The position numbers and the translations under genes are program-made. Below, one piece after another: positions 7,434 through 47,939 of a DNA stretch of 64,000 bases. Positions within the stretch are counted from its first letter, which is position 1. Each line of letters opens with the position of its first letter. The stretch is from Lachnospiraceae bacterium. Lineage in GTDB: Bacteria; Bacillota; Clostridia; Lachnospirales; Lachnospiraceae. Location: assembly GCA_910575005.1 (NCBI GenBank), contig CAJTCL010000023.1:1-64000 (forward strand), written 5' to 3'. The notes under the pieces are model-generated. The model was not told the origin of the DNA, did no database searches, and saw only the letters and a list, made by a program, of their open reading frames with translations.

Positions 7434-8873
7434 ATGATGGGACAGGAAACGTTGCAGGGAGAGGATATAAATAATTTTGCAGATCAATCCCTAGAGATTA
7501 TCATAAGGTTTGACAATCAGGGTAAGATTTTGTATGGAAATGCATTGGCAAAGGAAGAATTGGGGTATGGTGATAAATTGACGGATATCAGTTTGGATGT
7601 TTTGATTCCGGCAGAACTTTCCTCAGAGGACGACAGTTTTCCAATAGATGTAGTGGAGAAGCTTAAGGGAGGGACAATGTACCGCAAAAATGGAACCTGT
7701 TTTCCGGTACGCATGAATGTCGTGGTGGAAGGTGGACGCAATCTTTTATTTGCCATCAATGTTGCCAAACGTGTTGAGACAGAGCGTAAACTTGTGCGTA
7801 TGAAAGAGGAAATGGAGGAAACCATTAAGGTTCGGAATGAATTTGTGGCCAATGTGACTCATGAGCTTCGGACACCGGTCAATGGAATACGGGGCCATGT
7901 GACCAATCTATTGGAGGCAGGAGTCAGCGGCGAAGTAAAAAATACAATGGATATAGTGATTCGCTGTTGTGAGAATATGTCTGCCATTATCAATAATATT
8001 TTGGACTTCTCTAAATTGGAAGCAGGAAAATTTGTGATCGAGCAAAAGGAATTTAATTTTTATAAAATGGTAAACCATGCGGTGGAGACGAATATCACAG
8101 CGATCAATTCTAAAGGTTTGCATATTATGGTAAATATTGACAAGGTGATTCCAGAATATCTCGTAGGAGATGAGCTGCGATTGACACAGATCCTCAATAA
8201 TCTGCTTTCAAATGCTGTAAAATTTACCAGTGTTGGATATATTAATATAGAAGTAACTAGGACAGTGCAATTTGATGATGAGATTGAGCTGTTTTTTGTG
8301 GTTTCTGATACAGGGATTGGGATTTCTCCTGAGGAAAAAGATAAGTTGTTTAAGAGTTTTTCACAGGTGGACGCTTCAATTACCAGAAAGTATGGTGGTA
8401 CAGGACTGGGGTTGGCAATCACTAAGCAGCTAATTGAACTGATGCATGGCAGCATTCATTTGGAAAGTGAAAAGGGAAAAGGGAGTAGTTTTTCCTTCTC
8501 AGTCCGCTTACATATGGCAGAAGATGCCAATCAGGAAGGCCAGAGCAGTGAACAATTTGAGTTTATCAATCAGAATCACGATATGTCTCAGTTTGATAAT
8601 CTTGAGGAGATTTTTCAATTTGGCACAGCAGAGAATACAAAGGAAATTGCAGGTAAATTGGAAAAATTGATCTTATGTATGGAGGTGGAAGCCTGGGATA
8701 AGGCAGAAGCATTTGCACATAATATCAAAGAGCTGGTAGAGCAGGGACCCAAGGAGATTAAGAAAGCCGCCTTTCGTCTTGAAATGAATGTCAGGAAGGC
8801 AAATTATGATAAGAGTTTGGAACAATATAATAATTTGAAAACATTGTTTGAGCAGAATGTCGGAGGGAAATAA
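7434..8873 (+). CDS. PAS-domain sensor histidine kinase with Hpt-like tail
   Basis: A soluble histidine kinase with no membrane segments. The start is ATG 7434 after GAAAGAGGTGG; a TTG at 7404 is possible but has no ribosome site. Residues ~10-110 form a PAS-like sensor, HisKA follows with phospho-acceptor H143 in VTHELRTPVNG, and then the HATPase domain has N, G1 (DTGIGISPEEK) and G2 (GGTGLGLAITK) boxes. The last ~100 residues contain AHNIKEL in a helical context, resembling a degenerate Hpt domain. It sits one base before a REC-HD-GYP gene, a probable partner, and just upstream of the chemotaxis genes. Confidence 0.87.
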   Translation: MMGQETLQGEDINNFADQSLEIIIRFDNQGKILYGNALAKEELGYGDKLTDISLDVLIPAELSSEDDSFPIDVVEKLKGGTMYRKNGTCFPVRMNVVVEGGRNLLFAINVAKRVETERKLVRMKEEMEETIKVRNEFVANVTHELRTPVNGIRGHVTNLLEAGVSGEVKNTMDIVIRCCENMSAIINNILDFSKLEAGKFVIEQKEFNFYKMVNHAVETNITAINSKGLHIMVNIDKVIPEYLVGDELRLTQILNNLLSNAVKFTSVGYINIEVTRTVQFDDEIELFFVVSDTGIGISPEEKDKLFKSFSQVDASITRKYGGTGLGLAITKQLIELMHGSIHLESEKGKGSSFSFSVRLHMAEDANQEGQSSEQFEFINQNHDMSQFDNLEEIFQFGTAENTKEIAGKLEKLILCMEVEAWDKAEAFAHNIKELVEQGPKEIKKAAFRLEMNVRKANYDKSLEQYNNLKTLFEQNVGGK

Positions 8874-25606: not shown

Positions 25607-27676
25607 ATGGGATATCAAGATTTTTGGCAGCCATACCGCAGAGAAGTGGAAGAGCGTTTTTTGTTGATGGTGGAACGGCTGGAACAGATAGAGACAGAGG
25701 AGACGGCGGCAGAACCTTTCCGATCATATTTCCGGCATACAGCTTCATTTTTGCGAGATTTATGTAGGCTGGAAGAGGAAATCTATGCAGGAGCATGGGA
25801 GAACAAAAGTCAGCAGGATATGAGCACAGAAAATCAGGCATTATATAAGGAAATATTGCCACAGCATTACGCAGAAAGTTATGGAAATCCAACTTATGCT
25901 GTAATGCAGATGGGAGAGATCTATGGTAAGCTTCTGGGAATGCTCTATGCAGATATTCGCTCTTTGATTCCCTATGCTTTTGAGGGGCGAAATTTTGAAC
26001 TGACGATATTTGGAGAGCTACTGGTGGAGATTTACAACTGTTTTGAGCAGGAAGCTCAGCCAGAGGAAGAAGAGATTCAGCAGATTATCTATTGGTTTTT
26101 CCATGATTATGGGGAGATTTTTACAGAGGTCAGTGTGATGGCCCAGACTAATCCAGAACTGGATTTTTATGTCAGAATAATTATGGACTGTGATTTGTCT
26201 GATTTGCGCTATTTATATCACTATGGATTTTATATCAGTGACAATGAAATCAAAGTTGCAGAATATTTAAACCAGATGTCAGAGGAAGAGATTCAGGCGA
26301 TGGCAGATACTTATACAGAGGGGTATCGAATTGGATTTGAAGTGACAGGTAAAGATCTGTCAAAAAAGAAGTATGTCGATCTGCGATATCCAGTTGGATT
26401 TGAGCGTTTGATGCGTGCTGCTATCCATAATTTCAGAAAGATGGGTTTAGAGCCAGTAATTTCCAGAGTCAATGAGATTTCTTTTTCTGGCCGAGGCAAC
26501 GGAAAACGATCTGTGGACAGTACACAGCCCAATCTTCAATATGAATATGATCACAGAGCGGATAAGGCAGTCTATTTGGACAAGGCTTTGGTGGAGCGTC
26601 GTTTGGAGGTCTTGAAAACAGCATATGAAGCGCGAAAGAAGGAGGCATCACTGTATGCAGGTCCGGCTGTGGTGGAGACCTTTGGAAAAGATGGATTTGA
26701 ACCTAAGAGTTGTCTATCTGCCTATCAATTTGATGAGAAGCAGCAGAAGTTGAATGTCTATGCTGCCAGCCAGTCGATGCAGATTACCAATACCTATATG
26801 AAAGGTGAGGAACGCAGTTTTACGATTATAGCTTATCCCATTCCAGAGATTGGCCCTGATTTTAAAGAAATTTTTGCTAAGACGATAGAGATCAATACCT
26901 TGGATTATAAGCTGTATCAAGACATGCAGCAGAAAATGATTGATGTGCTTGATCAGGGAGAATTTGTTCATATCACCGGAAAGGGCAAGAATACCACGGA
27001 TTTGATGGTAGCCCTCTATCCATTAAAAGATCCGAGCAAAGAGACAATATTTGAAAACTGTGTGGCAGATGTGAATATTCCGGTGGGAGAAGTCTTTACT
27101 TCACCTGTGCTCAAAGGAACCAATGGTCATCTCCATGTGACTCAAGTGTATCTAAATGGCTTGAAATATCTGGATTTGGAACTCGATTTTGTGGATGGTA
27201 TGATCCGTCGTTATTCCTGTAAAAATTTTGATACAGAACAGGAAAATCAGGCATTTCTCAAGGAAAATTTGCTCAAGCATCATCAGACCTTGCCATTGGG
27301 AGAGTTTGCCATTGGCACCAATACGGCGGCATATAAGATGGGAGTTGATTATCAGATTCAGGCTAAACTGCCGATTTTGATTGCAGAGAAAACCGGACCG
27401 CATTTTGCAGTGGGAGATACTTGTTATAGTTGGGCAGAGGATACACCTGTATTTAACCCTGATGGCAAAGAGATTGTAGCAAGAGAAAATGAGATTTCCA
27501 GGCTGCGCAGCGAGGAGCCACAGAAGGCATATTTCAGTTGCCATACCGATATCACAATCCCTTATGATGAATTGGATCAGATTACTGTGATAAGGCATGA
27601 CAAAAGCTGTGCAGATATTATACAGGATGGTAAGTTTGTAGTGCCAGGGACAGAAGTGTTAAATCAATATTTGTAA
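25607..27676 (+). CDS. M29-type aminopeptidase with large N-terminal domain
   Basis: A 689-residue protein. The C-terminal ~380 residues resemble M29 (AmpS/PepS-type) metallo-aminopeptidases: FVHITGKGKNTTDLMVAL, PVGEVFTSPVLKGTNGHLHV and LGEFAIGTNTAAY are family-like segments that include likely metal and catalytic Glu/His residues. The N-terminal ~300 residues are acidic, helical and not recognised; ordinary M29 enzymes are about 410 residues. The region before the ATG repeats the ribosome site (GAAAAAAGAGGTTGTG twice, 25522 and 25590). The TAA stop lies within the left end of a GTAAC repeat. Confidence 0.78.
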   Translation: MGYQDFWQPYRREVEERFLLMVERLEQIETEETAAEPFRSYFRHTASFLRDLCRLEEEIYAGAWENKSQQDMSTENQALYKEILPQHYAESYGNPTYAVMQMGEIYGKLLGMLYADIRSLIPYAFEGRNFELTIFGELLVEIYNCFEQEAQPEEEEIQQIIYWFFHDYGEIFTEVSVMAQTNPELDFYVRIIMDCDLSDLRYLYHYGFYISDNEIKVAEYLNQMSEEEIQAMADTYTEGYRIGFEVTGKDLSKKKYVDLRYPVGFERLMRAAIHNFRKMGLEPVISRVNEISFSGRGNGKRSVDSTQPNLQYEYDHRADKAVYLDKALVERRLEVLKTAYEARKKEASLYAGPAVVETFGKDGFEPKSCLSAYQFDEKQQKLNVYAASQSMQITNTYMKGEERSFTIIAYPIPEIGPDFKEIFAKTIEINTLDYKLYQDMQQKMIDVLDQGEFVHITGKGKNTTDLMVALYPLKDPSKETIFENCVADVNIPVGEVFTSPVLKGTNGHLHVTQVYLNGLKYLDLELDFVDGMIRRYSCKNFDTEQENQAFLKENLLKHHQTLPLGEFAIGTNTAAYKMGVDYQIQAKLPILIAEKTGPHFAVGDTCYSWAEDTPVFNPDGKEIVARENEISRLRSEEPQKAYFSCHTDITIPYDELDQITVIRHDKSCADIIQDGKFVVPGTEVLNQYL

Positions 27677-34839: not shown

Positions 34840-35541
34840 ATGGATAAAATATTAGTAGTGGATGATGAAAAAGAAATTGCAGATTTGGAGGCATTTTATT
34901 TGGAAAGTGAAAATTTTGATGTCACTGTGTGTTATTCCTCCAAGGAGGCGTTGGAACAGATAGAGATGGTGGATTTTGATCTTGCGATTTTAGATGTTAT
35001 GCTGCCTGGGATTGATGGCCTTGAGCTTTGCAAAGAAATTCGCAAGGCTCACAATTATCCAGTGATTATGCTGACGGCTAAGGATGAAGAGATTGATAAA
35101 ATTCGTGGACTCATGCTGGGGGCAGATGATTATATGACCAAGCCATTTCGTCCTTTGGAATTGGTTGCAAGGGTAAAGGCGCAGCTTAGGCGCTATAAGA
35201 GATATAATCAGTCACAGGTTTTGGAAGAGTCAGATCCCCATTTGTTGGTACATGGGGGCTTGGTGATGAATATTAAGACCCATGAGTGCCAATTGGATGA
35301 GAAGCCCTTAGTTTTGACGCCTACAGAATTTTCCATTTTAAAGATACTCTGCCAGAGAAAAGGCGAGGTTGTAAGTTCGGAAGAATTATTTCATGAGATT
35401 TGGCAGGATGAATATTACAGTAAGAGCAATAATACAATTACGGTGCATATCCGTCATCTGCGTGAGAAAATGAATGATTCTGTGGAGCATCCCAAATATA
35501 TTAAGACGATCTGGGGAGTTGGTTATAAAATTGAAAATTAA
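34840..35541 (+). CDS. vanR: OmpR/PhoB-type response regulator, VanR-like
   Basis: A 233-residue regulator, receiver plus winged helix. Phospho-acceptor D52 (AILDVMLPGIDG), conserved K in MTKPFRPLELVARV, and a C-terminal DNA-binding domain with LTPTEFSILKILC and NTITVHIRHLREKM. The start is ATG 34840 with GAGAGG eight bases upstream; ATG 34834 is too close to that site. It resembles VanR regulators of VanG-type clusters and lies directly before a VanS-like kinase and a complete vanG-vanXY-vanT set, so it probably controls them. Confidence 0.87.
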   Translation: MDKILVVDDEKEIADLEAFYLESENFDVTVCYSSKEALEQIEMVDFDLAILDVMLPGIDGLELCKEIRKAHNYPVIMLTAKDEEIDKIRGLMLGADDYMTKPFRPLELVARVKAQLRRYKRYNQSQVLEESDPHLLVHGGLVMNIKTHECQLDEKPLVLTPTEFSILKILCQRKGEVVSSEELFHEIWQDEYYSKSNNTITVHIRHLREKMNDSVEHPKYIKTIWGVGYKIEN

Positions 35542-37277: not shown

Positions 37278-38327
37278 ATGGAAAATAAGAAGAAAAAGGT
37301 TGCAATTTTATTTGGGGGCTGCTCTAGCGAGTATGAGGTATCTCTGCAGTCAGCATATGCAGTGATTACACATATGGATTTGGAAAAATATGAGGCAGTT
37401 TTGATTGGAATAGACCAAAAAGGAGTGTGGTATCTGTATCAGGGTGATCTGGCCAATATTCCAGAGGATAATTGGCTGACGAAAGAAGATTGTATTCCGG
37501 TGGCTGTCTCACCAGATAAGGAACTGCATGGGATTTTAGTTTTAAAAGAGAGTGGCGTAGAAAAGATTTCTCTGGATGGCGCACTGCCAGTCTTACATGG
37601 AAAAAATGGTGAGGATGGTACAGTACAAGGAGTATTGGAATTGGCAGAGATTCCATTGATTGGCTGCAATACGATGAGTTCTGCCATCTGTATGGATAAG
37701 GAAACGGCACATCGTTTGGCTAAGGAATGCGGTGTCAAAGTGCCATCCTCATATCTTATTACCAAGACAGATTTGCGGCAGGAAAAACAAATTATCAGTT
37801 ATGGGGAGCAATTGGGTTATCCACTGTTTGTAAAACCGCTGCGAGCAGGTTCTTCTTTTGGAATCACGAAAGTAGGAAGGCAGGAAGAATTGCTGGCAGC
37901 AGTGGAATATGCTTTCGATTATGATTCTGTTGTAATTTTGGAGGAGATGATAGAGGGCTTTGAGGTGGGCTGTGCAATATTGGGTACCGAGAAGCTGACG
38001 GTGGGTGTAGTAGATGAGATTGAATTGTCGGAAGGATTTTTTGACTATACAGAAAAATATACTTTGAAATCTTCCCAAATCCATGTTCCAGCGCGGATTT
38101 CTCAGGAAATGGCACAAAAGATTCAAGAAACGGCCATTCGTATTTATCGGGGACTGGGATGCAGTTATTTTGCTAGGGTAGATCTGTTTCTGACACCAGA
38201 GGGAGAAATCTATTTTAATGAAGTCAATACTATTCCTGGCTTTACCTCACACAGTCGTTATCCAAATATGCTCAAAGAGGTGGGAATTTCTTTTGAGGAA
38301 ATTATTGCAAGATTACTTGAAATGTAG
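37278..38327 (+). CDS. vanG: D-alanine-D-serine ligase, VanG type
   Basis: An ATP-grasp ligase that makes the D-Ala-D-Ser dipeptide used in place of D-Ala-D-Ala, lowering vancomycin affinity. It has 349 residues: FGGCSSEYEVSLQSA near 15, the omega-loop region E259-KYTLK (the EKYTL pattern fits D-Ser ligases; vanA/B-type ligases and housekeeping Ddl differ), LFVKPLRAGSSFGI near 180, and EVNTIPGFTSHSRYP near the end. AAAGGAG precedes the ATG. The neighbours vanXY and vanT make the VanG assignment much stronger than the motif alone. Confidence 0.88.
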   Translation: MENKKKKVAILFGGCSSEYEVSLQSAYAVITHMDLEKYEAVLIGIDQKGVWYLYQGDLANIPEDNWLTKEDCIPVAVSPDKELHGILVLKESGVEKISLDGALPVLHGKNGEDGTVQGVLELAEIPLIGCNTMSSAICMDKETAHRLAKECGVKVPSSYLITKTDLRQEKQIISYGEQLGYPLFVKPLRAGSSFGITKVGRQEELLAAVEYAFDYDSVVILEEMIEGFEVGCAILGTEKLTVGVVDEIELSEGFFDYTEKYTLKSSQIHVPARISQEMAQKIQETAIRIYRGLGCSYFARVDLFLTPEGEIYFNEVNTIPGFTSHSRYPNMLKEVGISFEEIIARLLEM

Positions 38328-38364
38328 GGAGGAAAAGAATGATCAAACTAGAGAGGTGTGAAAG

Positions 38365-39204
38365 GTGCGAAAACTTGAAAAAAACAGGGTTTTTGAGGGA
38401 AATCTGATTTTGGTCAATCAAAATTATCCTCTGCGTTGTACGATTGCAGCAAAAAATTTGTGTCCAGTATTTGAAAATCAGTCGCAAATTTTGATGCAGC
38501 AAGAGTGTGCGGGAATGTTGGATAAACTGTTTCAGGAATTGAACTGGAGTATTTCGGAAGAAATATATCAGTTGATTGTAGGCGTCAGTGGCTATCGTAC
38601 CAAGTCAGAACAAGAAGAAATTTTTGATGATTCTTTGAAGGAAAATGGCAGAGCGTTTACAGAAAAATATGTGGCTTTTCCAGATCATAGTGAGCATCAG
38701 ACGGGATTGGCCATTGATTTGGCAGAAAATAGAGAAGAGATAGATTTTATTCGCCCACAATTTCCCTATCAGGGAATTTGCCAGAAATTTCGAGAAAAAA
38801 TTGCTGATTTTGGGTTTATAGAACGTTATCCAAAAGAAAAACAGGACATTACCAAAATTGGTGCGGAACCGTGGCATTTTCGATATGTGGGCGTGCCGCA
38901 TGCAGAGATTATGAAGCGGTATGGTATGGCGCTGGAAGAATATATTGTGTGGTTAAAGCAGTTTTCCTTTCCAGACCATTCTTTTATCTGGCGGAAAGGA
39001 GATAGAGAATTTAAGATTGGCTATGTGGAGGCTGAGGAAACATTGACTAAAATAGATTTGTCCGAATATGGTAAACAGATGCAGGGAATGGAGGAGCGAG
39101 CAGGAGAAATAATTTCTTATAATTTGGCAGAATGTAAAGAGCTGCCCAATATTCAAATTTCAGGGAATAATGTAGACGGATTTGTAATTACATATGCTCA
39201 ATAG
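38365..39204 (+). CDS. vanXY: D,D-peptidase/dipeptidase VanXY-like
   Basis: A zinc peptidase of the VanY/VanXY family that removes normal D-Ala-D-Ala ends or dipeptides. It has 279 residues: VSGYRTKSEQEEIF near 72, the zinc motif SEHQTGLAIDLA near 112 (His and Asp), and catalytic Glu plus zinc His in EPWHFRYVG near 172. There is no signal peptide or membrane anchor, which fits the cytoplasmic VanXY type rather than VanY. An unusual extra ~80 residues follow the peptidase core. The start is GTG 38365 with GAGAGG eight bases upstream. Confidence 0.85.
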   Translation: MRKLEKNRVFEGNLILVNQNYPLRCTIAAKNLCPVFENQSQILMQQECAGMLDKLFQELNWSISEEIYQLIVGVSGYRTKSEQEEIFDDSLKENGRAFTEKYVAFPDHSEHQTGLAIDLAENREEIDFIRPQFPYQGICQKFREKIADFGFIERYPKEKQDITKIGAEPWHFRYVGVPHAEIMKRYGMALEEYIVWLKQFSFPDHSFIWRKGDREFKIGYVEAEETLTKIDLSEYGKQMQGMEERAGEIISYNLAECKELPNIQISGNNVDGFVITYAQ

Positions 39205-39212
39205 GAGGGAAC

Positions 39213-40292
39213 ATGAGACATAGGAAAAATTATGCGGCAATTGACAATTTTCGGCTGGTGGCGGCAGTGTTGATTGTCGCAATTCACACAGCACCCTTGG
39301 CTTCATTTAGCGATACAGCAGATTTTCTTGTCACATATTGTTTTGGGAGGATTGGAGTGCCATTTTTTTTGATGGTAACAGGTTTTTTTGTGCTTGCCCC
39401 TTATCAGCGTAAGTATGCCAAACGTTTTTCATCAGGACAATCAGAGATGATGAATAATGAAGACAGCAACAGAATTGGAATTGGCAGCGTAGGCAGATTT
39501 TTAGGAAAAACAGCAATTCTGTATGGAATTTCTACACTGCTGTATTTTCCATTGAAGTTATATTCTAAAAATTTGAGTGATAGTGTGGGAGGCTGGCTAA
39601 AAGAAATTTTTTTTGATGGCACATTTTATCATCTCTGGTATCTGCCAGCGGTGATTTTGGGCTGTTTGCTGTTGGTGGCATTGTTGCGCTTCTGCAGTCC
39701 GCTGACCATATCGGCAGTAGTATTTATACTATATATTTTTGGTGTGTTGGGGGACAGTTATTATGGTCTGGTCAGTGAAGTCCCTTTTTTTAAGATCGTG
39801 TATGAAGGAATTTTCCAGGTCAGTTCTTATACCAGAAATGGGATCTTTTTTGCGCCAGTCTTTTTATGGCTGGGGGTAGTGTTGGCCAACAGTAAGATTA
39901 AAATTTCAAGAGAACATGCCAGTGTAGGTTTTGCAGTTTCTATGGCAGCGATGTTGGCAGAAGGATTTTTAAGTTTTCATTTTCAATGGCAGAAACATAA
40001 CAGTTTATATTTTTTATTACTTCCAGTAATGTTCTTTTTGTTTGAGATGCTGCTCTCCATGCGAGGTCCAGAGATTGGTATTGCCAGAGAGTTGTCGATG
40101 TATATTTATATTTTGCATCCATTGTGTATTGTTGTGGTGCGTGGGGCGGCAGGTGTTTTAAAAATGTCTGAGCTGTTGGTGGAACAATCTTTGATTCATT
40201 ATTTGGCAGTGGTGTTAGTTTCTGTCTTGCTGTCACTGGCAGTGGTGATGATAAAACGATTATTTTCTGAAAGGACATTTAGTATCTTATAA
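39213..40292 (+). CDS. vanT: Membrane half of VanT serine racemase (acyltransferase-3 fold)
   Basis: A 359-residue integral membrane protein with about ten hydrophobic segments, starting with the acyltransferase-3 signature NFRLVAAVLIVAIHTAPLA. In Enterococcus VanT, such a domain is the N-terminal half of one protein and is thought to import L-serine; the C-terminal half is the racemase. Here the frame stops at 40292 and the racemase is a separate gene 173 bp downstream, with a repeat copy between. AGGAGG precedes ATG 39213, 8 bp after vanXY. Confidence 0.83.
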   Translation: MRHRKNYAAIDNFRLVAAVLIVAIHTAPLASFSDTADFLVTYCFGRIGVPFFLMVTGFFVLAPYQRKYAKRFSSGQSEMMNNEDSNRIGIGSVGRFLGKTAILYGISTLLYFPLKLYSKNLSDSVGGWLKEIFFDGTFYHLWYLPAVILGCLLLVALLRFCSPLTISAVVFILYIFGVLGDSYYGLVSEVPFFKIVYEGIFQVSSYTRNGIFFAPVFLWLGVVLANSKIKISREHASVGFAVSMAAMLAEGFLSFHFQWQKHNSLYFLLLPVMFFLFEMLLSMRGPEIGIARELSMYIYILHPLCIVVVRGAAGVLKMSELLVEQSLIHYLAVVLVSVLLSLAVVMIKRLFSERTFSIL

Positions 40293-40318
40293 TCAGTGAA
40301 TTTAAATTGGAGATTTTA

Positions 40319-40414
40319 GTAACGATTCCCAAGCCGATCAATATAGAAAGTCATATCATTAAAATTTATTTGAAAAAAATGAATTTCTGTTTTCGTGAGG
40401 CTCGGAATAGTTAC
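40319..40414 (+). repeat. GTAAC repeat family, copy H (left half plus right end)
   Basis: 96 bp, starting GTAACGATTCCCAAGCC, with AAAATTTATTTGAAAAA and ATGAATTTCTGTTTTCG, and ending CTCGGAATAGTTAC. It lies exactly between the membrane and racemase halves of vanT. Confidence 0.75.
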
Positions 40415-40464
40415 AGATACAAAATGCTAATTTTTAGTTGGATAGAAAGAAGAGGTATACAGCA

Positions 40465-41595
40465 ATGAAAGAGATCAAATATCAAAAAGGTCGGGCGTGG
40501 ATGGAACTTAGCATGGAAAATTTAAAACATAATATAAAAGAATTTCGCCGCATACTGCCTTGGGATTGTGCGCTGATGCCAGCAGTCAAGGCAAATGCCT
40601 ATGGTCATGGAGCAGTGCTGACAGCAAATGCGCTCCAGGAACAGGGAGTACAGGCATTTTGTGTGGCGTCTGTCGCGGAAGGGGCAGAGCTTCGACAGTC
40701 AGGAATTAAAGGGGAACTGTTGGTACTTGGTTATACTGCGCCCAGTCAATTTGATGATTTGATCTGTTATCATTTGACCCAGACGGTTATTGATGGGGAT
40801 TATGCAAGGCAATTGGAACGTGATGGGCGCAGATTCACGGTTCATGTCGGAATTGATACAGGAATGCATCGTTTGGGGGAACGCTGGGAAAATCTGGAGG
40901 AAATTGTTAAAATATTTCGGATTCCAAATTTACAAGTAACGGGACTTTATTCTCATCTGTGTGTCTCAGACGGACAGTCAGAGCCGGAGCGTGCCTATAC
41001 CCTGGAGCAAATTCAGCATTTTGAGTATATCGTTCGGGAACTTCACCGCCAGGGATTTAATGATTTTAAATGCCATTTGCAGGGCAGTTATGGTGTATTG
41101 AATTATTCAGAGTATTGTTTTGACTATGCAAGAGTGGGAATTGCTCTATATGGCCTATATAGTCAAAAAGGAGATCAAGGCTATGCGGCTGTCGATTTAA
41201 AACCTGTATTATCTTTGAAAGCCAGAGTGACAACAGTTAAAACACTGTCGAAAGGGGAAGGTGCCGGTTATGGGCTGACTTACAATGCCAAAATGGATCG
41301 CAAGATTGCAGTGCTTTCTATTGGCTATGCGGACGGTGTGCCTCGTAATTTGTCAAACTGCGGCTATGTGCTCTGCAATGGCAAGCTGGCGCCGATTGTC
41401 GGCAGGATCTGTATGGATCAGATGATGGTGGATGTGACAGATATTCCTCAGATAAGAGCTGGAGATGAGGCGGTGTTAATTGGCAGAAGCGGCAAGCTGG
41501 AGATCCGCGCAGAGGATCTGGCACAGTGGGCTGGAACGATCAGCAATGAGATTGTCAGCCGCCTGGGAGAACGCTTGGAGCGGGTGGCAGATTAA
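40465..41595 (+). CDS. vanT: VanT catalytic half: PLP serine/alanine racemase
   Basis: A 376-residue alanine-racemase-fold enzyme, expected to make D-serine for VanG. PLP lysine K42 in AVKANAYGHGA, GYADGVPRN and the opposing catalytic Tyr in GAGYGLTY near residue 270. ATG 40465 with AAGAAGAGG nine bases upstream gives a short soluble N-terminus (MKEIKYQKGRAWMELSMENL), so it is a complete free-standing enzyme. By sequence alone an ordinary alr cannot be excluded; position behind vanG-vanXY and the VanT-like membrane gene favours vanT. Confidence 0.85.
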   Translation: MKEIKYQKGRAWMELSMENLKHNIKEFRRILPWDCALMPAVKANAYGHGAVLTANALQEQGVQAFCVASVAEGAELRQSGIKGELLVLGYTAPSQFDDLICYHLTQTVIDGDYARQLERDGRRFTVHVGIDTGMHRLGERWENLEEIVKIFRIPNLQVTGLYSHLCVSDGQSEPERAYTLEQIQHFEYIVRELHRQGFNDFKCHLQGSYGVLNYSEYCFDYARVGIALYGLYSQKGDQGYAAVDLKPVLSLKARVTTVKTLSKGEGAGYGLTYNAKMDRKIAVLSIGYADGVPRNLSNCGYVLCNGKLAPIVGRICMDQMMVDVTDIPQIRAGDEAVLIGRSGKLEIRAEDLAQWAGTISNEIVSRLGERLERVAD

Positions 41596-41651
41596 AATCG
41601 ACAACTGTTGGGTGTTAAGGTTTAGCTAAGATTGGAAAAAAATGCTGAAAT

Positions 41652-41798
41652 ATGGGGGAGGATGTGATATTGTGGAGGGGAAATAATCCAAGGAATAGAT
41701 ATGAGTGGAGGATAATTGAAAGTTATCCGTCAATTAGATGGAATGGTGTAGATAGTTTGGGGTTATCCGTTGGTTTTAGTGATGGTAGATCTTATTGA
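41652..41798 (+). other. 48-codon open frame running through the left inverted repeat
   Basis: The frame starts ATG 41652 and crosses the whole repeat in the reading EWRIIESYPSIRWNGVDSLG, then ends at TGA 41796. The same frame is open across the other repeat arm on the opposite strand. Just outside the arm it reads NNPRNRYE, partly like the recombinase C-terminus (HPRNGMD). It may be a relic of a coding segment; whether it is translated is unknown. Confidence 0.35.
41702..41779 (+). repeat. Left arm of 78-bp perfect inverted repeat
   Basis: From TGAGTGGAGGATAATTGAAA to CCGTTGGTTTTAG. The reverse complement at 46949-47026 is identical over all 78 bases. The arm contains GTTATCCGT twice, 40 bp apart, and TAATTGA/TCAATTA as an internal inverted pair, possible recombinase contacts. 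Confidence 0.95.
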
Positions 41799-41838
41799 TA
41801 ATCCTTACTATATCTTTAATAAGCATGGAGGAAGCAAA

Positions 41839-42405
41839 GTGCTAAGTACTATAGTTGAAGTTTCTACAATAGTTACAAATATATTCTTATCCGTTGGAGC
41901 TGTGATTACAGTCTTTCAATTAATTCAAATGAAAAAAAGTAATATTCTGCAATCGAAAAGTTTAATGGCAGATCATGAACGGAGAAAAAAACAATCAACA
42001 TTAGAATTTTACTCAGATATTTATCCTTATTTAAGTGAATTTAGAACAAAGATAACTGATATATTTGGCAATGGGTATGTTACGCCAGATGACGTTAGAT
42101 ATATACAGGATAAAGATATACAACAAATGATATATGAATATTTAGTAATTATAGAAAGATTCGCTGTAGGAGTAAATTCTGGGATTTATGATATTAACAT
42201 ATTTGCTAAAACTTCTGGAAAAGTTGTGTCTGATATGTATAAAAAATTGTCTCCCATAATTGAAAACATGAGGATTACTCAAAATTATCCTGAGATGTTT
42301 AATGATTTTGAAAAGATGAGTAAAGATGTTCTAGAAGTTAGAGAAAAAATGTATCCAAAATTATCAGGAGAAGATTTGGTATCTATAAAAAATATTACTT
42401 TTTAG
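41839..42405 (+). CDS. Small membrane protein resembling DUF4760, in the invertible cassette
   Basis: A 188-residue protein with one N-terminal membrane segment (about residues 5-27, VTNIFLSVGAVITVFQLIQM), then a basic region (HERRKKQSTLEFYSDIY) and a helical cytosolic part. This layout resembles DUF4760-type proteins, of unknown function. The start is GTG 41839 with GGAGG seven bases upstream; earlier TTG/ATG codons (41770, 41782) have no ribosome site. It begins 60 bp inside the left repeat arm and is followed by the fusion gene after 23 bp, so the two form one unit. Confidence 0.65.
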   Translation: MLSTIVEVSTIVTNIFLSVGAVITVFQLIQMKKSNILQSKSLMADHERRKKQSTLEFYSDIYPYLSEFRTKITDIFGNGYVTPDDVRYIQDKDIQQMIYEYLVIIERFAVGVNSGIYDINIFAKTSGKVVSDMYKKLSPIIENMRITQNYPEMFNDFEKMSKDVLEVREKMYPKLSGEDLVSIKNITF

Positions 42406-42428
42406 TAATTAAACACGGAGGATATAAT

Positions 42429-45299
42429 ATGAATTTAGATATTGCTATAAAAGAAAGGTATAGCTGTCGGGCATATAAAACAAAGGAATTAACTGAATTA
42501 CAAATACGCACAATACTAGATGCTGCACGTCATGCTCCATCACCTAAAAATCGACAACCATGGCGTTTTGTTGTCTTACGCCAAAAAGACAAGGATGAGT
42601 TTTTGAAAAAAATTCACAATCCATTTTCAAATAATTCAACCCAATATCTTTATGAAAAAAAATTAAATGAATTTAATAGCGAAAAACAAACATATAGAAT
42701 CATGAAAGAGGCAGATTCTGTTATATTAGTATTTAACGCATATTCCAGTAATGAGGTATTAGGAAAAGAGGACAAACTATTTGATTGTGCAAATATACAA
42801 GCCATTGGGGCCGCTATACAAAATATGATTCTAAAAGCAACTGATCTTGGAATTGGAAGTTTATGGATTTGTGACATCTTTGCTTGTTATCAACAGGTTC
42901 GTGAGGATTATTATAAAGAAGGACAATTAATTGCGGCAATTGCATTAGGATATCCAGCAGATATAAATATAAAGACAACCCGAAAACTTCTTGACGAATT
43001 GATTATTAAAAGATGCAGCCCCAAGACAGATCATTTAATATGGGTAGGTCCTAGAGAATCTGACATATATGATTGTTCCAACCTTTTTCAAGGTTCTATC
43101 ACAATATTCGGTTCGAATTGCAATGGAAATATATCGTATTGTGCAAAAAATGGCGTCAGAATAGATCACAATATTCCTGAGTGTATAGATAACTCATTTT
43201 GGATTGATGGACTGAAAGAGTTAAAAGAGAAATACCCCGATTCTAAAATATTATATTATAATAATGAATTTGCATATAATGTTACAGATGATTTGAAAAA
43301 AGATGTTATATGTTGCAATGAACTCAGTCTTATAAAAATGTTAAATAATAAATCTGCTATGCGGATGGCATTTTCAGAATTGATACCAGTAGTTCCATTT
43401 CAAGAATTAACGTATAGTGACAACCTTAATTTATCGGGTTTATTTTCAAACAATTCAATGCTAATTTTTCAAGAGAATAACTCTTCCGGTGGATATGGAA
43501 CTCATGTGGTAAATATTGCTACAAATCATTTAAAACAATTTGTAGGAAAAACGTTTATGGTATCTCCATATATCGAGAATTCCGTTTCTGTAAATGTACA
43601 TATAATTATTGGACATAATACAATACTTTATTTTCCAGGATCTATTCAAATAATTTGCAATATAGATAACAAATTAATTTATTTAGGGGCTGACTACATA
43701 TCTTTTCAATCATTATCTTTGGCTAAAAGAAAAAAACTTAGCTGTTATGTAAGAGAGCTTGGAGAATATTTACGAAATTTGGGCTATAAAGGCGTGCTTG
43801 GATTTGACTTTTTGATTACTAAAGATGAAATCATGTTTGTGGAAGTTAATCCTCGTTTTCAAGCATCTACGCCTTTGCTAAATACGGCATTGAAAGCTAA
43901 AGGTCTTCCTAGTATGCAAGAAATGCAGATAGCTGCATTTATGGATACAAATTTGCCTGCACAATCTGAAATAGACGCCGTATTAGTTCCATATAGTATG
44001 ATTTCATATATTGAAGGGACTTGGAACAAACCTTATTATTTATTAAGGAAAATGCATGAAATTACAGAAATAGATATGTTTTTTGAAGATGGTTTTTCAC
44101 AAAATGAAACTATACAGAAGAATGCATATTTATTTAAAATAGTTTTTAACACCAATTGTGTGTCGGCGAATCCAGATTACAAAGTAGATATTTATGAAAA
44201 TCTTATAGATATTGAAGACGATTTTTATAAATCTATCATGAATAAAGATAAACTTAAAACTAAAATTTCCCTATTAAATCAAGGAGTAATAATATCAAAA
44301 AATGCAAAAAGCCAGATTGAAAACACGGGAAAAATACGCAATGCAGTATTCAGCGCAGTTGATATAACCATTTTTGAATCGTTACATATTAATTGTCCAA
44401 AGAGATTAAAATTTAGTAATTTTACTCCCTGGACGATAGATGTTAAGGATGCAGAAATTTTAACATTGTATTATTACGGTAATGAAATTAGTAACGTAAC
44501 ACTGGATTTGGAGGATATGTATTGTAATAATCTTATACAATCAAATGTGAAATTTTCAGATGTCTGCTTTTGGGCAACTGATCGTTTGCGCATCCACCAT
44601 AATTTGTCTTGTTGTATGAAAAATCAAGGTCTCGGATGTAAATTCTGCGAAGTTCCTGTCAGCAACCATTGTATTTCTATAGAAGATATTTTATGTGTTG
44701 TTGACTTTTATCTAGAAAAAGCAAATACGTTTCGACATTTTCTTATTGGAGGTGGTTCGGAACCTAGAGAGCTTGAGTATAAAAATATTCTAAAAATTAT
44801 TAAACATATACGTAAAAAAAGTACAAAAGATATTTATGTGATGAGTCTTCCGCCAAAAGATTTAAGCGTATTAAAAATGTACTATGAAGCTGGTGTAAAT
44901 GAAATCGGATTTAATCTTGAGATATTTGACCAAGACACAGCAGCGAATTATATGCCAGGAAAAGGAGCAATTTCTCGGCAAGAATACTTTATGGCATTAA
45001 AGGAAGCTGTGAGATACTGGGGCAATACCGGAAAAGTCCGTAGTCTTATGATTGTAGGACTAGAATCCGAAGATTCTTTATTGCAAGGAATTCGCGAACT
45101 CTGCCAAATTGGGGTTATGCCTATTCTTTCCGTTTTTAGACCTATACCAGGAACTGAAACAGAAAATATTGTACCACCATCAAATGAAGTTTTGCAAAAA
45201 ATATATAAGAAAGCCACCATGATATGTGAAGAATTTTCTCTTCATTTAGGACCAGAATGTTCTTTTTGCCAAAATAATACGCTTAGTCTACCTTTTTAG
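42429..45299 (+). CDS. Nitroreductase / ATP-grasp / radical-SAM fusion protein
   Basis: A 956-residue, three-part protein. Residues ~1-195 are a nitroreductase fold (ERYSCRAYKTKELTELQI, APSPKNRQPWRFVVL, LGIGSLWICDIF), normally FMN-dependent. Residues ~215-560 look like an ATP-grasp ligase, with NKSAMRMAFSELIPVVPF, GYKGVLGFDFLITKD and the metal-binding EVNPRFQAS at E472. Residues ~700-956 resemble a radical-SAM enzyme, but the cysteines C728/C729, C737 and C740 give C-x7-C-x2-C instead of C-x3-C-x2-C; two further cysteines (ECSFC) lie at the C-terminus. I know of no characterised protein with this order, and the substrate is unknown. AT-rich compared with the neighbours. Confidence 0.72.
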   Translation: MNLDIAIKERYSCRAYKTKELTELQIRTILDAARHAPSPKNRQPWRFVVLRQKDKDEFLKKIHNPFSNNSTQYLYEKKLNEFNSEKQTYRIMKEADSVILVFNAYSSNEVLGKEDKLFDCANIQAIGAAIQNMILKATDLGIGSLWICDIFACYQQVREDYYKEGQLIAAIALGYPADINIKTTRKLLDELIIKRCSPKTDHLIWVGPRESDIYDCSNLFQGSITIFGSNCNGNISYCAKNGVRIDHNIPECIDNSFWIDGLKELKEKYPDSKILYYNNEFAYNVTDDLKKDVICCNELSLIKMLNNKSAMRMAFSELIPVVPFQELTYSDNLNLSGLFSNNSMLIFQENNSSGGYGTHVVNIATNHLKQFVGKTFMVSPYIENSVSVNVHIIIGHNTILYFPGSIQIICNIDNKLIYLGADYISFQSLSLAKRKKLSCYVRELGEYLRNLGYKGVLGFDFLITKDEIMFVEVNPRFQASTPLLNTALKAKGLPSMQEMQIAAFMDTNLPAQSEIDAVLVPYSMISYIEGTWNKPYYLLRKMHEITEIDMFFEDGFSQNETIQKNAYLFKIVFNTNCVSANPDYKVDIYENLIDIEDDFYKSIMNKDKLKTKISLLNQGVIISKNAKSQIENTGKIRNAVFSAVDITIFESLHINCPKRLKFSNFTPWTIDVKDAEILTLYYYGNEISNVTLDLEDMYCNNLIQSNVKFSDVCFWATDRLRIHHNLSCCMKNQGLGCKFCEVPVSNHCISIEDILCVVDFYLEKANTFRHFLIGGGSEPRELEYKNILKIIKHIRKKSTKDIYVMSLPPKDLSVLKMYYEAGVNEIGFNLEIFDQDTAANYMPGKGAISRQEYFMALKEAVRYWGNTGKVRSLMIVGLESEDSLLQGIRELCQIGVMPILSVFRPIPGTETENIVPPSNEVLQKIYKKATMICEEFSLHLGPECSFCQNNTLSLPF

Positions 45300-46891
45300 A
45301 TAGGTAAATAAATATTTTGATGATAGAGAGTATCTAATATGTCTTCTTTGCCATCTAAAAAGTGTATTTCTAAATTTGTAATTTTTATTCCTGATTTTTG
45401 GAGAGTGTCTTTAATATTAGCGAGCTTTTCAAAAAAATTATTTTCAATATTAACATTATAGGATGGGGATGGTTTATAACCTTCCCCATTATTTGTAATA
45501 AATTTATTTAGTTCTTTTCTCAATGTTACAATCTCTGGAGAAAATTGCTTTTTGGGTGTTGTGACTTGCCTCTTACCCAATTTATTACTTATAAATTTAC
45601 CCGTTGCTCCAATGGCTCCTCCTATAGTAATAACACTTGCTATATCTGCGATTATTGGTCGCAAAACATAGAAAACACTTTGGAAATTTGAAATCAAATC
45701 ATAAAATTCACCAGACGAAAAAAAATCAATAACATTGGGTGAATTATGACGGATTTCGATGTGTTTGCTATCCAATGAAATTCCACATTCAATTGTCGCT
45801 TTTTCTAATGCATTTAAAAGTATTGATAATCTTTCGTAATCATCTGGTTCTATATTTGTATGAATTGTAAGAGTTAATACAGGATTATCATTCGGGTTAT
45901 CAAATAATAATTTTTTTATCATCGGAAAATATAAGTAAAACTGATGATATTCTCCTTCCGTTAATTGAGCGTTTGATAACATTGTATTAATTTCTGAGTA
46001 TAAAATAATTCTTTTTTCTCTTGGGACTTTTAATATTTGGGCTGCTTGTATACAGTAAAAATATAAAGAACGAAAATCGTGTAAAATGGCACTTTTTCTA
46101 ATACCAGTTTCATTACATAAATTGGCTAAATCTATCTTATTTTCAACAATATAACAGTTTGTCAACGGAAAATATTGATTTTTAACATTAAAAAAAATTA
46201 TAAAATCTTGAATCATTTCTTTGTATTTTTCCAACTTTATAAATTTAGTAGAAGAATCATGAGACGAAATTTTAATATCATCTGAAGTGTTAAAAATATA
46301 CTGCAATCCGTTAAATGTATAAGGCATTTGGATAAATGGAAGACAAACATTTTTCATGTGTGTATCTTCAAAAAATGCGTAATTTAATGTAAGTTGTCTT
46401 AAATCTATATTTTCGAAAATGTTTTTTCGAAAGCGGCATAATTCAAAATTCGATGATGAGATTTTCGTATTTCTTAATATCCCCGAATAAAATTCTGTTC
46501 CTAAAAAAGAACATCCATATATTTCACTATCTTGTATAGCACAATATGTAAAAGTACTATTTGCAAAATTACTTCCTTTAAAGGAGCAATTTTGAAATAT
46601 ATCTTTTGTAAAACTACAATATTGCATAGAAACATTATCTATTTTGGAACAATAAAAATCATTATCTTTAAAAATAGTTCCATTTCCGCTTACGTTTGTA
46701 AGATCACATTTGTTCCAAATTTCAGATTCAAATTTTGCCTGATAAAAAATTGTACCTTTTAAGTCCTTCGGCATTTCGTCAGCACCTTGACCGGAACTCA
46801 ACTGTCCACGAATATTAAAATCTCTAAAAATATGTTTATATATAGTTGATTCAGCATCTTTAATCTTTATCAGCGAAAATTCTTCAATCAT
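45296..46891 (-). CDS. Pentapeptide-repeat membrane protein in the invertible cassette
   Basis: A 531-residue protein. Residues ~40-190 contain degenerate pentapeptide repeats of the A(D/N)LxX/F type (NCSFKGSNFANSTFTYC, GCSFLGTEFYSG), forming a right-handed beta-helix. The middle (~230-380) is unrecognised. A hydrophobic segment occurs near 415-440 (IIADIASVITIGGAIGAT), then a basic and a helical C-terminus. ATG 46891 follows AGAGGAATAC and is 58 bp inside the right repeat arm. Its stop overlaps the convergent fusion gene by 3 bp. Function unknown; an effector or membrane-acting role is speculation. Confidence 0.65.
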   Translation of the reverse strand: MIEEFSLIKIKDAESTIYKHIFRDFNIRGQLSSGQGADEMPKDLKGTIFYQAKFESEIWNKCDLTNVSGNGTIFKDNDFYCSKIDNVSMQYCSFTKDIFQNCSFKGSNFANSTFTYCAIQDSEIYGCSFLGTEFYSGILRNTKISSSNFELCRFRKNIFENIDLRQLTLNYAFFEDTHMKNVCLPFIQMPYTFNGLQYIFNTSDDIKISSHDSSTKFIKLEKYKEMIQDFIIFFNVKNQYFPLTNCYIVENKIDLANLCNETGIRKSAILHDFRSLYFYCIQAAQILKVPREKRIILYSEINTMLSNAQLTEGEYHQFYLYFPMIKKLLFDNPNDNPVLTLTIHTNIEPDDYERLSILLNALEKATIECGISLDSKHIEIRHNSPNVIDFFSSGEFYDLISNFQSVFYVLRPIIADIASVITIGGAIGATGKFISNKLGKRQVTTPKKQFSPEIVTLRKELNKFITNNGEGYKPSPSYNVNIENNFFEKLANIKDTLQKSGIKITNLEIHFLDGKEDILDTLYHQNIYLPI

Positions 46892-46948
46892 ATGTATTCC
46901 TCTATATTTTTTAAAATGGTAATAACAAATTATTTGTAATTCTTATTC

Positions 46949-47026
46949 CTAAAACCAACGGATAACCCCAAACTATCTACACCATTCCATCTAATTGACG
47001 GATAACTTTCAATTATCCTCCACTCA
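46949..47026 (-). repeat. Right arm of 78-bp perfect inverted repeat
   Basis: The exact reverse complement of 41702-41779. The recombinase gene ends inside this arm (stop 47013-47015). The arms are 5169 bp apart. Confidence 0.95.
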
Positions 47027-47939
47027 CATCCATCCCATTCCGTGGATGCTTCTCTGTCAGTATTGCTTTCTGCTTATGCATAGAGACACTGGTATAAATC
47101 TCCGTAGTGGTAATAGAGCTATGCCCCAACATCTTTTGAATATAACGGATATCTACATCCGCTTCTAACAAGAGTGTAGCAAAAGAATGGCGAAACATAT
47201 GAGGTGTGATATGCATAGAAATTTCCGCCATGTCAACATACTTGTTAATCATAAACCGCACAGACTGTTCTGAGAGCCGATGGCCTAAGCGGTTGATAAA
47301 CAGCCAGCCACTTTTTGTGATTTCCTTTTGGAACTCATTTATATAGGAGGTAATTGCAGAAATTACATCTAAATTACCAATCTGTATCATGCGTTCTTTG
47401 GCGCCTTTTCCCCAAATTAGGATAGAATGATTTTCCATATCAATATCTTGGTATTTGAGATTGCAGAGTTCGGAAATGCGCATACCAGTAGCAAACAAAA
47501 GTTCAATCACTGCAATATCCCGAAGTGCATATTTTTTTTGAAAAGGTGTTGTAGCTTGTTGATAGTGTTGGTAAATAGTAAATAAAAACAACTGAATGGT
47601 GTTGGCAGGAATTATTTTTGGAAGACGTTTCGGTTCACGGTAGGAAATCCGCATTTTGTTAAAGGGGTTGTGTTCCAGGAGATCTTCATATTCTAGAAAA
47701 TGAAAAAATGCCTTAAGGCTGGCAATTTTTCTTTTGGTGGTTTTAGGTTGATACTGTTCATGGAGCATTGCCAGATAAGAAGTCAGGCATTCTTTGGAGA
47801 TGGGATTTTCATAGGTGGAAGCAAACTTTATAAATTGTTTCAAATCAATGCGGTATGCTTTTATCGTTTTTGCGTTCAATTCTTTTTGTGTTTTGCAATG
47901 TATTAAATAATTTTCCTTCAAAATTTCTAATGAATACAT
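47013..47939 (-). CDS. Tyrosine recombinase (XerC/D-like) beside the inverted repeat
   Basis: A 308-residue recombinase, full length for the family. An N-terminal SAM-like core-binding domain (~1-90, KTQKELNAKTIKAYRIDLKQ), then a catalytic domain with Arg in LLFATGMRISELCNL, Lys region in ILIWGKGAKERMI, HxxR in ITPHMFRHSFATLLLEAD, His in LGHSSITTTEIYT and the nucleophilic Tyr within the same segment. All catalytic residues appear intact. AAAGGAG precedes the ATG. The 3' end (MDVSGG and stop) lies in the repeat arm, and transcription points into the cassette. Confidence 0.9.
   Translation of the reverse strand: MYSLEILKENYLIHCKTQKELNAKTIKAYRIDLKQFIKFASTYENPISKECLTSYLAMLHEQYQPKTTKRKIASLKAFFHFLEYEDLLEHNPFNKMRISYREPKRLPKIIPANTIQLFLFTIYQHYQQATTPFQKKYALRDIAVIELLFATGMRISELCNLKYQDIDMENHSILIWGKGAKERMIQIGNLDVISAITSYINEFQKEITKSGWLFINRLGHRLSEQSVRFMINKYVDMAEISMHITPHMFRHSFATLLLEADVDIRYIQKMLGHSSITTTEIYTSVSMHKQKAILTEKHPRNGMDVSGG

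Follow-up and report, generated by a model that had tools for sequence, protein, structure and literature searches.

This analysis concerns positions 1 to 64,000 of the forward strand of contig CAJTCL010000023.1 (GenBank assembly GCA_910575005.1, Lachnospiraceae bacterium), the whole of which is called the window, and in it a 5.2-kb segment that lies between two inverted repeat arms beside a tyrosine recombinase gene. The left (distal) arm spans 41692–41779 on the plus strand and the right (recombinase-side) arm 46949–47036 on the minus strand, as delimited by repeat search. The arms are 88 nt long, inverted and 97% complementary, with 5169 nt between them. The initial annotation had reported two identical 78-bp sequences in opposite orientation at this distance, and repeat search and direct reading confirm them: 41702–41779 and 46949–47026 are identical along 78 nt, the perfect stretch of the left arm starting at 41702 and the nearest mismatch being 41701. 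At E up to 0.001, a search of the 4.29-Mb assembly finds no third copy of an arm. Each arm carries a palindrome-like 17-bp core of the form GATAA-N7-TTATC and a second core 40 nt further in. The outer cores are at 41711–41727 (plus strand, GATAA-TTGAAAG-TTATC), where homology with the relative locus L132 ends at 41727, and at 47001–47017 (minus strand), overlapping the recombinase stop codon. The inner cores, at 41751–41767 (plus strand, GATAG-N7-TTATC) and 46961–46977 (minus strand), have one mismatch each. The 17-bp core, a feature beyond those of the initial annotation, is likely the recombination site.

The recombinase gene (47013–47939, minus strand) is a complete open reading frame (ORF) of 308 amino acids (aa) that reads toward the cassette. 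The TAA stop falls within the outer core of the right arm, which bears out the earlier claim of a complete gene with its last codons in one arm. The protein is Xer-like and can be aligned with solved Xer proteins through the C-terminal region. It misses the NCBIfam equivalog cut-offs of XerC (250.6 of 335.15 bits) and XerD (244.4 of 329.6 bits), as well as that of the integron integrase TIGR02249 (119.7 of 265 bits). It presumably acts on the sites in the arms.

Two gene units fill the segment. Unit A, on the plus strand, consists of a gene for a DUF4760 protein (41839–42405) and a gene for a 956-aa protein with nitroreductase, ATP-grasp and radical SAM regions (42429–45299). The start codon of the first gene is our choice, GTG at 41839 behind GGAGG being the likeliest; the longest ORF begins at 41770, inside the arm. 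Unit B (45296–46891, minus strand) encodes a 531-aa protein with a pentapeptide β-helix (residues ~45–185) followed by helices to ~330. The two large ORFs are convergent and overlap by 4 nt, and the leaders between the arms and the first genes are 59 and 57 nt, in agreement with the earlier description of two convergent units that start just inside the arms. None of the three proteins matches a PADLOC model at E up to 0.001. The predicted structure of the 531-aa protein (mean pLDDT 65.1) is confident only in the pentapeptide part and the following helices; the C-terminal part is of low model confidence, and no effector domain can be named from the model. Its fold matches are mostly pentapeptide or designed solenoid β-helices. 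A weak fold match to HalA (9nyi, probability 0.75) is a lead only. Outside the left arm, a vanG-type cluster (VanG ligase, VanXY and VanT as two ORFs; 37278–41595, plus strand) reads toward it.

We consider it quite probable that the segment is a two-faced gene cassette, flipped by the recombinase, whose facing gene set is driven from outside. The Xer-like recombinase would recombine the 17-bp cores in the inverted arms and turn the 5.2-kb segment around. From starts just inside the arms the two gene sets run toward each other, and sequence outside the far arm would transcribe whichever set faces it, while the other set would face the 3' end of the recombinase gene. We infer that the window copy still flips and that flipping would change expression there, either via a weak promoter at 41645–41673 or through read-through from the van genes. 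As in other invertible segments, inverted recombination sites bound the segment and a recombinase gene is linked to it.

Inversion occurs in nature in two related systems, as judged from aligned sequences. In the window's genus, genomes G022 and G027, both draft assemblies, compare over 20 kb at 99.98–100% identity with the cassette reversed. In contig C21 of G022 the left flank is followed by one cassette end. In G027 that flank is followed by the opposite end (contig C44), and the end first named adjoins the right flank (contig C67), so both junctions have changed over within the arms. The recombinase of these genomes is 59% identical to that of the window. The second system is a pair of finished plasmids of Aliarcobacter cryaerophilus, pACRY43158 and pM830MA, which share one recombinase protein record, with 49% identity to the window recombinase. 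A stretch of 3458 bp matches at 99.91% in minus orientation, while its flanks match in plus orientation at 100% and 99.2%. The repeats are just 17 bp here (AATAA-TAGGATA-TTATA), so the exchange lies in the core. Two details of these loci are recorded separately. Both G027 contigs lose the match to G022 at the same cassette point, as if an element had inserted (L125, 1–225; L126, 16007–16168), and the large module of the Aliarcobacter cassette (L203, 1937–4407) is one ORF in pACRY43158 and annotated as two in pM830MA.

The architecture recurs widely. We searched 152 partly overlapping loci (the window and L044–L194, some fetched twice) by BLAST for inverted repeats 1.2 to 12 kb apart that hold the core, with one mismatch allowed. 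Core-bearing repeats gave 54 inverted and 3 direct hits, while the same search with a scrambled core gave 2 and 1. A direct-repeat (excision-type) arrangement is almost absent by this count and was rejected. After three of the 54 are dropped as duplicates, 51 distinct cassettes remain, with a repeat E above 1e-5 in 14 and above 1e-4 in 9. Forty-two lie within 300 nt of the recombinase and the furthest is 7.4 kb from it; in L088 the recombinase is inside the cassette. The gene sets are convergent in 46 of the 51 (the exceptions are L063, L079, L084, L094 and L118). Along 100 aligned cassette ends, ATAA and TTAT are practically invariant and the 7-nt spacer varies among loci; because the core was itself the selection criterion, only the mismatch positions are informative. 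The spacer is identical between the two arms of a cassette in 49 of 50 cases, which is largely built in, since the arms were chosen as repeats holding a core. Of 68 recombinase loci (71 less three partial matches), 11 have a contig end no more than 100 nt behind the recombinase stop, and none has one that close before the start; at 250 nt the numbers rise to 15 and 4. Such ends are expected if the arms disturb assembly. These 51 cassettes, together with both orientations in two related systems, support the invertible-cassette reading first proposed in the initial annotation.

The recombinase is common in relatives of the strain. A match of some kind is present in 60 of 61 genomes (the window's own and 60 relatives), and a nearly full-length match at 77–100% identity in nine of them, the window's own included. 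Among 397 genomes drawn from the window's family, 52 have a relative at E up to 1e-60. A scan of genome contigs gave the 71 loci, and the named high-identity ones are Lachnospiraceae. Distant relatives (43–49% identity) adjoin cassettes on Streptococcus and Aliarcobacter plasmids. A phage element was considered and rejected: neither the recombinase nor the 956-aa protein has a relative in two viral-contig scans. Eight records of a phage collection match the recombinase, three unannotated faecal scaffolds at 51–58% and five at 31–32%. One such 80-kb scaffold filed as phage (L206) has, beside its 51% relative, a core-bearing inverted pair at 7524–7555/9666–9697. In G012 (L118, 9725–19562), an 80%-identical recombinase lies beside a vanT-like racemase ORF and has no cassette at its 3' end; a cassette lies ~2.4 kb off on the other side of the recombinase, so this recombinase may act at a distance.

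The promoter score used here has hand-set, not trained, sigma-70 weights, and the shuffles preserve base composition only. Inward sites with a score of at least 11 occur within 200 nt outside the far arm in 16 of 47 cases and outside the recombinase-side arm in 0 of 51, compared with 11 of 490 shuffles. With 150-nt windows the same score is reached in the far flank by sites pointing inward in 15 of 47 and by sites pointing outward in 4 of 47, on the recombinase side in 0 of 50, and at 300–450 nt from the far arm in 0 of 45. In loci with the recombinase reading toward the cassette, an extended -10 within 70 nt points inward in 15 of 37 far flanks, outward in 2 of 37 far flanks and inward in 2 of 39 recombinase-side flanks. 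The recombinase-side flank is often coding, which may lower the score there. In these loci, inward promoter-like sites outside the non-recombinase arm, missing on the recombinase side, fit the earlier proposal that flipping would swap the unit behind the van genes with the unit behind the recombinase. In the window, the weak candidate promoter (41645–41673, plus strand; TGATATTGT) consists of CTGAAA, a 17-nt spacing and TATTGT with an extended -10, and both hexamers are unchanged in L132. No terminator-like site is found between 41400 and 42500, that is, from the van genes to unit A.

Several observations weigh against this reading. The orientation comparison among related genomes that the initial annotation had in mind gave the reversal in G022/G027; for the window cassette itself it left one orientation only, with no full second copy in the 28 other genomes of the genus, searched as DNA (one short 67% match, in G021). 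Near-identical cassettes in different records form four pairs, of which two are inverted and two are not. The latter are two Streptococcus pairs, each with the same orientation within the pair, and G022/G027 is the sole near-identical pair from two different genomes in a search of the fetched loci, to which the Aliarcobacter and Streptococcus pairs are additional. The sequence of many loci is from draft or metagenome assemblies, and the 14 repeat pairs with E above 1e-5 also count here. The far-arm promoter rule fails for loci with the recombinase reading away from the cassette, because the extended -10 is found on the far side in 0 of 11 and on the recombinase side in 3 of 11. The Streptococcus salivarius plasmids, which have this layout, carry an extended -10 outside both arms. 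The window candidate scores 8.2, where the median best of 400-nt shuffles is 8.3, and is absent from the consensus scan list, a stricter criterion. On the minus strand, the stretch from the recombinase to unit B shows no terminator-like site, and transcription of the near unit as well is therefore possible; with no terminators found on either side, read-through from both sides is possible. As a separate observation, a terminator-like hairpin (AGCAGTGAAC...GTTCACTGCT) is seen by eye just behind the recombinase stop in L062, L065, L067 and L069. In this subgroup it would insulate the near module.

The cargo of the cassettes falls into two broad sets and, beyond what the initial annotation described, is often immune-like. 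The immune-type set includes TIR, SIR2 with STALD, SIR2 with NACHT, large ATPases with or without TPR, an Mrr nuclease with ATPase, and pentapeptide proteins. The Mrr nuclease domain is found in L120 only, outside the large-ATPase cluster, which itself shows ATPase domains; many ATPase hits are below the Pfam cut-off and some cargo proteins are without a hit. The enzyme set includes D-Ala-D-Ala-ligase-like ATP-grasp, radical SAM, SHMT and other PLP enzymes, glycosyltransferase, nucleotidyl- or carbamoyltransferase, methyltransferase and prenyl synthase. The labels effector and enzyme are our own and cover 44 of the 51 cassettes; 28 of the 44 proteins were scanned singly with Pfam and the rest labelled by clustering, L055 and L099 being without a Pfam hit and L101 having a weak hit only. 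In PADLOC, the set of 32 effector-side proteins gives matches to 33 families and the set of 47 enzyme-side proteins to 11. Viperin models are matched by two enzyme-side proteins, the radical SAM proteins of L045 and L118, and a thymidylate-kinase-like protein of L132 matches PDC-M51B and VakA. Of the 44 cassettes, 25 have the effector-labelled module starting at the far arm and 19 have it at the other arm, beside the recombinase (binomial p 0.45). By family, pentapeptide cassettes split 7 and 3 and large-ATPase cassettes 6 and 3; both ThsA and both nSTAND6 cassettes have the effector on the near side. From family resemblance we suppose that the cargo acts against phages or other invaders, with enzyme and effector probably working as a pair.

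Such pairing raises the alternative that each cassette is one two-part immune system whose enzyme and effector halves are always expressed, the arms only holding the pair together. Module families pair non-randomly in 29 cassettes (47 same-pair matches versus a permutation mean of 17.8, p 2e-4; shared descent is not removed in this test). In Aliarcobacter a large ATPase-like protein (weak AAA hits) recurs together with an ATP-grasp enzyme; the S. salivarius cassettes, L148 and, by clustering, L162 combine SHMT with a TPR/nSTAND6-like protein (nSTAND6 below the Pfam cut-off). These recurring pairs suggest that the two sets work together, which is in tension with strict either-or expression. Two Thoeris-type cassettes add to the points against such expression. 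In L132, at the window's own locus in G027, a ThsA-like protein (3.8e-98) and a TIR protein (best model PDC-S66, 5.5e-16; second ThsB, 3e-11) are on opposite strands, and L141 (7058–9412, G201) is a minimal cassette whose sole content is a ThsA-like and a TIR protein, facing each other. The placement on opposite modules sits badly with strict either-or expression if both proteins are needed together. Against permanent expression of both halves, strong promoters are few at the cassette ends. Within the arm plus a 60-nt leader, a promoter score of at least 11 is reached in 3 of 100 ends and of at least 10 in 12 of 100. On the recombinase side of the Aliarcobacter cassette the annotated first ORF starts 1 nt behind the 17-bp arm; arm and leader make 18 nt, so a promoter cannot fit inside. 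The modules also often overlap tail to tail. We regard permanent expression of both halves as unlikely, if with some real chance. The window cargo itself is not Thoeris, its three proteins having no PADLOC match.

The cargo also appears to be exchangeable, a further point beyond the initial annotation. Different cassettes are found between the same flanks. The window and contig C7 of G027 have flanks in common at about 88–94%, comprising the van genes, a recombinase that is 95% identical and, beyond it, a gene that is presumably mutY; the cargo is unrelated. Flank homology stops at the outer core ends, 41727 and 47001, in BLAST, or 14 nt further with another scoring. L094/L095 and L116/L117 likewise have common flanks and different cargo; their homology reaches 3–12 nt beyond the core at the recombinase-side end and stops about 40–46 nt short of it, on the outside, at the far end. 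The S. salivarius plasmids have three cargos at one site, and Aliarcobacter plasmids also differ in cargo at one site. When cassette ends are compared in 76 pairs, the homology of 32 breaks off within the core; 27 lose it before that point, and 17 lose it 18–61 nt after the core start. The support from this count is weak, as 74 of the 76 are recombinase-side ends and the pairs share members; at these ends the recombinase gene itself stops, and homology would fade near the core in any event. The simplest reading of the common flanks is that whole cassettes are exchanged through recombination at the two cores. As a side observation, L045 (12959–13954) and L095 (6650–7890) carry related ORFs in otherwise different cassettes, possibly an inserted mobile element.

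It could be argued from these flanks that the main activity of the recombinase is to swap whole cassettes at one fixed site, the inverted arms and occasional inversion being a by-product that leaves expression unaffected. However, inverted sites, unlike direct ones, cannot release a circle. The promoter asymmetry at the far arm would have no reason to exist if orientation were irrelevant, and the end-pair comparison is dominated by ends where homology fades in any case. We find capture and exchange as the main function rather improbable. That the site is a dead relic, once active in inversion or insertion and now static in this strain, is very unlikely: a single known orientation in the window speaks for it, but the recombinase ORF is full length and alignable with solved Xer proteins, the arms are identical over 78 nt, and a 95%-identical recombinase lies beside intact arms in G027.

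The flipped, outside-driven cassette can be extended to a broader proposal, which we find possible though on balance doubtful. It holds that these are widespread mobile invertible immune cassettes, which the recombinase both flips and swaps, with the enzyme and effector halves of one immune system on opposite strands such that one outside promoter never drives both; inversion would then arm, disarm or trigger the system. The enzyme halves (ATP-grasp ligases, radical SAM, SHMT-like enzymes, glycosyltransferases and prenyl synthases) would be signal makers or modifiers for TIR, SIR2, STAND-like and undescribed effectors.

Among the closest known systems are the invertible G segment of phage Mu and C segment of phage P1, in which two alternative gene sets converge, the invertase gene lies beside them and the driver is outside, inversion thereby selecting the set that is expressed; these have serine invertases and tail-fibre genes. 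The cassettes resemble them in the convergent sets and the adjacent recombinase, and the outside driver would be a further likeness. They differ in having a tyrosine recombinase and exchangeable cargo of immune-type and enzyme genes, and in residing on bacterial chromosomes and plasmids. Integrons also place a tyrosine recombinase beside exchangeable gene cassettes, and that likeness holds here. An integron was nevertheless rejected, as there is one inverted pair and not a direct array (3 direct versus 54 inverted hits) and the integrase model reaches 119.7 of 265 bits; attC folds were not searched.

In phase variation by tyrosine recombinases, the RecV switch of Clostridioides difficile (PMC8890394) and other invertons (PMC11892184) are DNA segments reversibly inverted by a recombinase. 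Orientation-dependent expression is proposed for the cassettes too, but in the cassettes whole gene sets would invert against an outside driver. The XerC/D dif modules of Acinetobacter plasmids lie between inversely oriented dif-like sites, undergo inversion where spacers match and are shuffled between plasmids (PMC13141974). The dif half-sites end in ATAA and begin with TTAT (PMC13141974), letters that the cassette cores share, along with inverted Xer-type sites and shuffling. The dif modules use XerC/XerD and 6-bp spacers with several modules per plasmid, whereas the cassettes have a 7-bp spacer, a dedicated linked recombinase and usually one two-sided cassette. In a partial literature search no title or abstract opening described such cassettes, and a prior description is possible.

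If the reading of a flipped, outside-driven cassette is true, bacterial immunity would gain a switch: some cells of a population would express one half of a defence pair and other cells the other half, and the locus would serve as a socket into which new cassettes fit. The 17-bp core and its recombinase also offer a means of tracing unknown immune-type gene pairs from sequence alone, and the question why STAND, TIR or SIR2 genes can adjoin small biosynthetic enzymes becomes testable.

A few further features of the window are noted. Between positions 35000 and 50000, Rfam gives no match at gathering thresholds to a known RNA element. In the vanG-type cluster, VanT is split, with the membrane part and the racemase part as separate ORFs (39213–40292 and 40438–41595); the VanG ligase is above its NCBIfam cut-off (552.7 of 495 bits), and VanXY-G is below its own (236.1 of 500). 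Two more inverted repeat pairs, both without cores, are present at 27668–27745/40343–40419 (76%) and 18657–18827/48122–48293 (71%), and one arm of the latter lies upstream of the recombinase gene.

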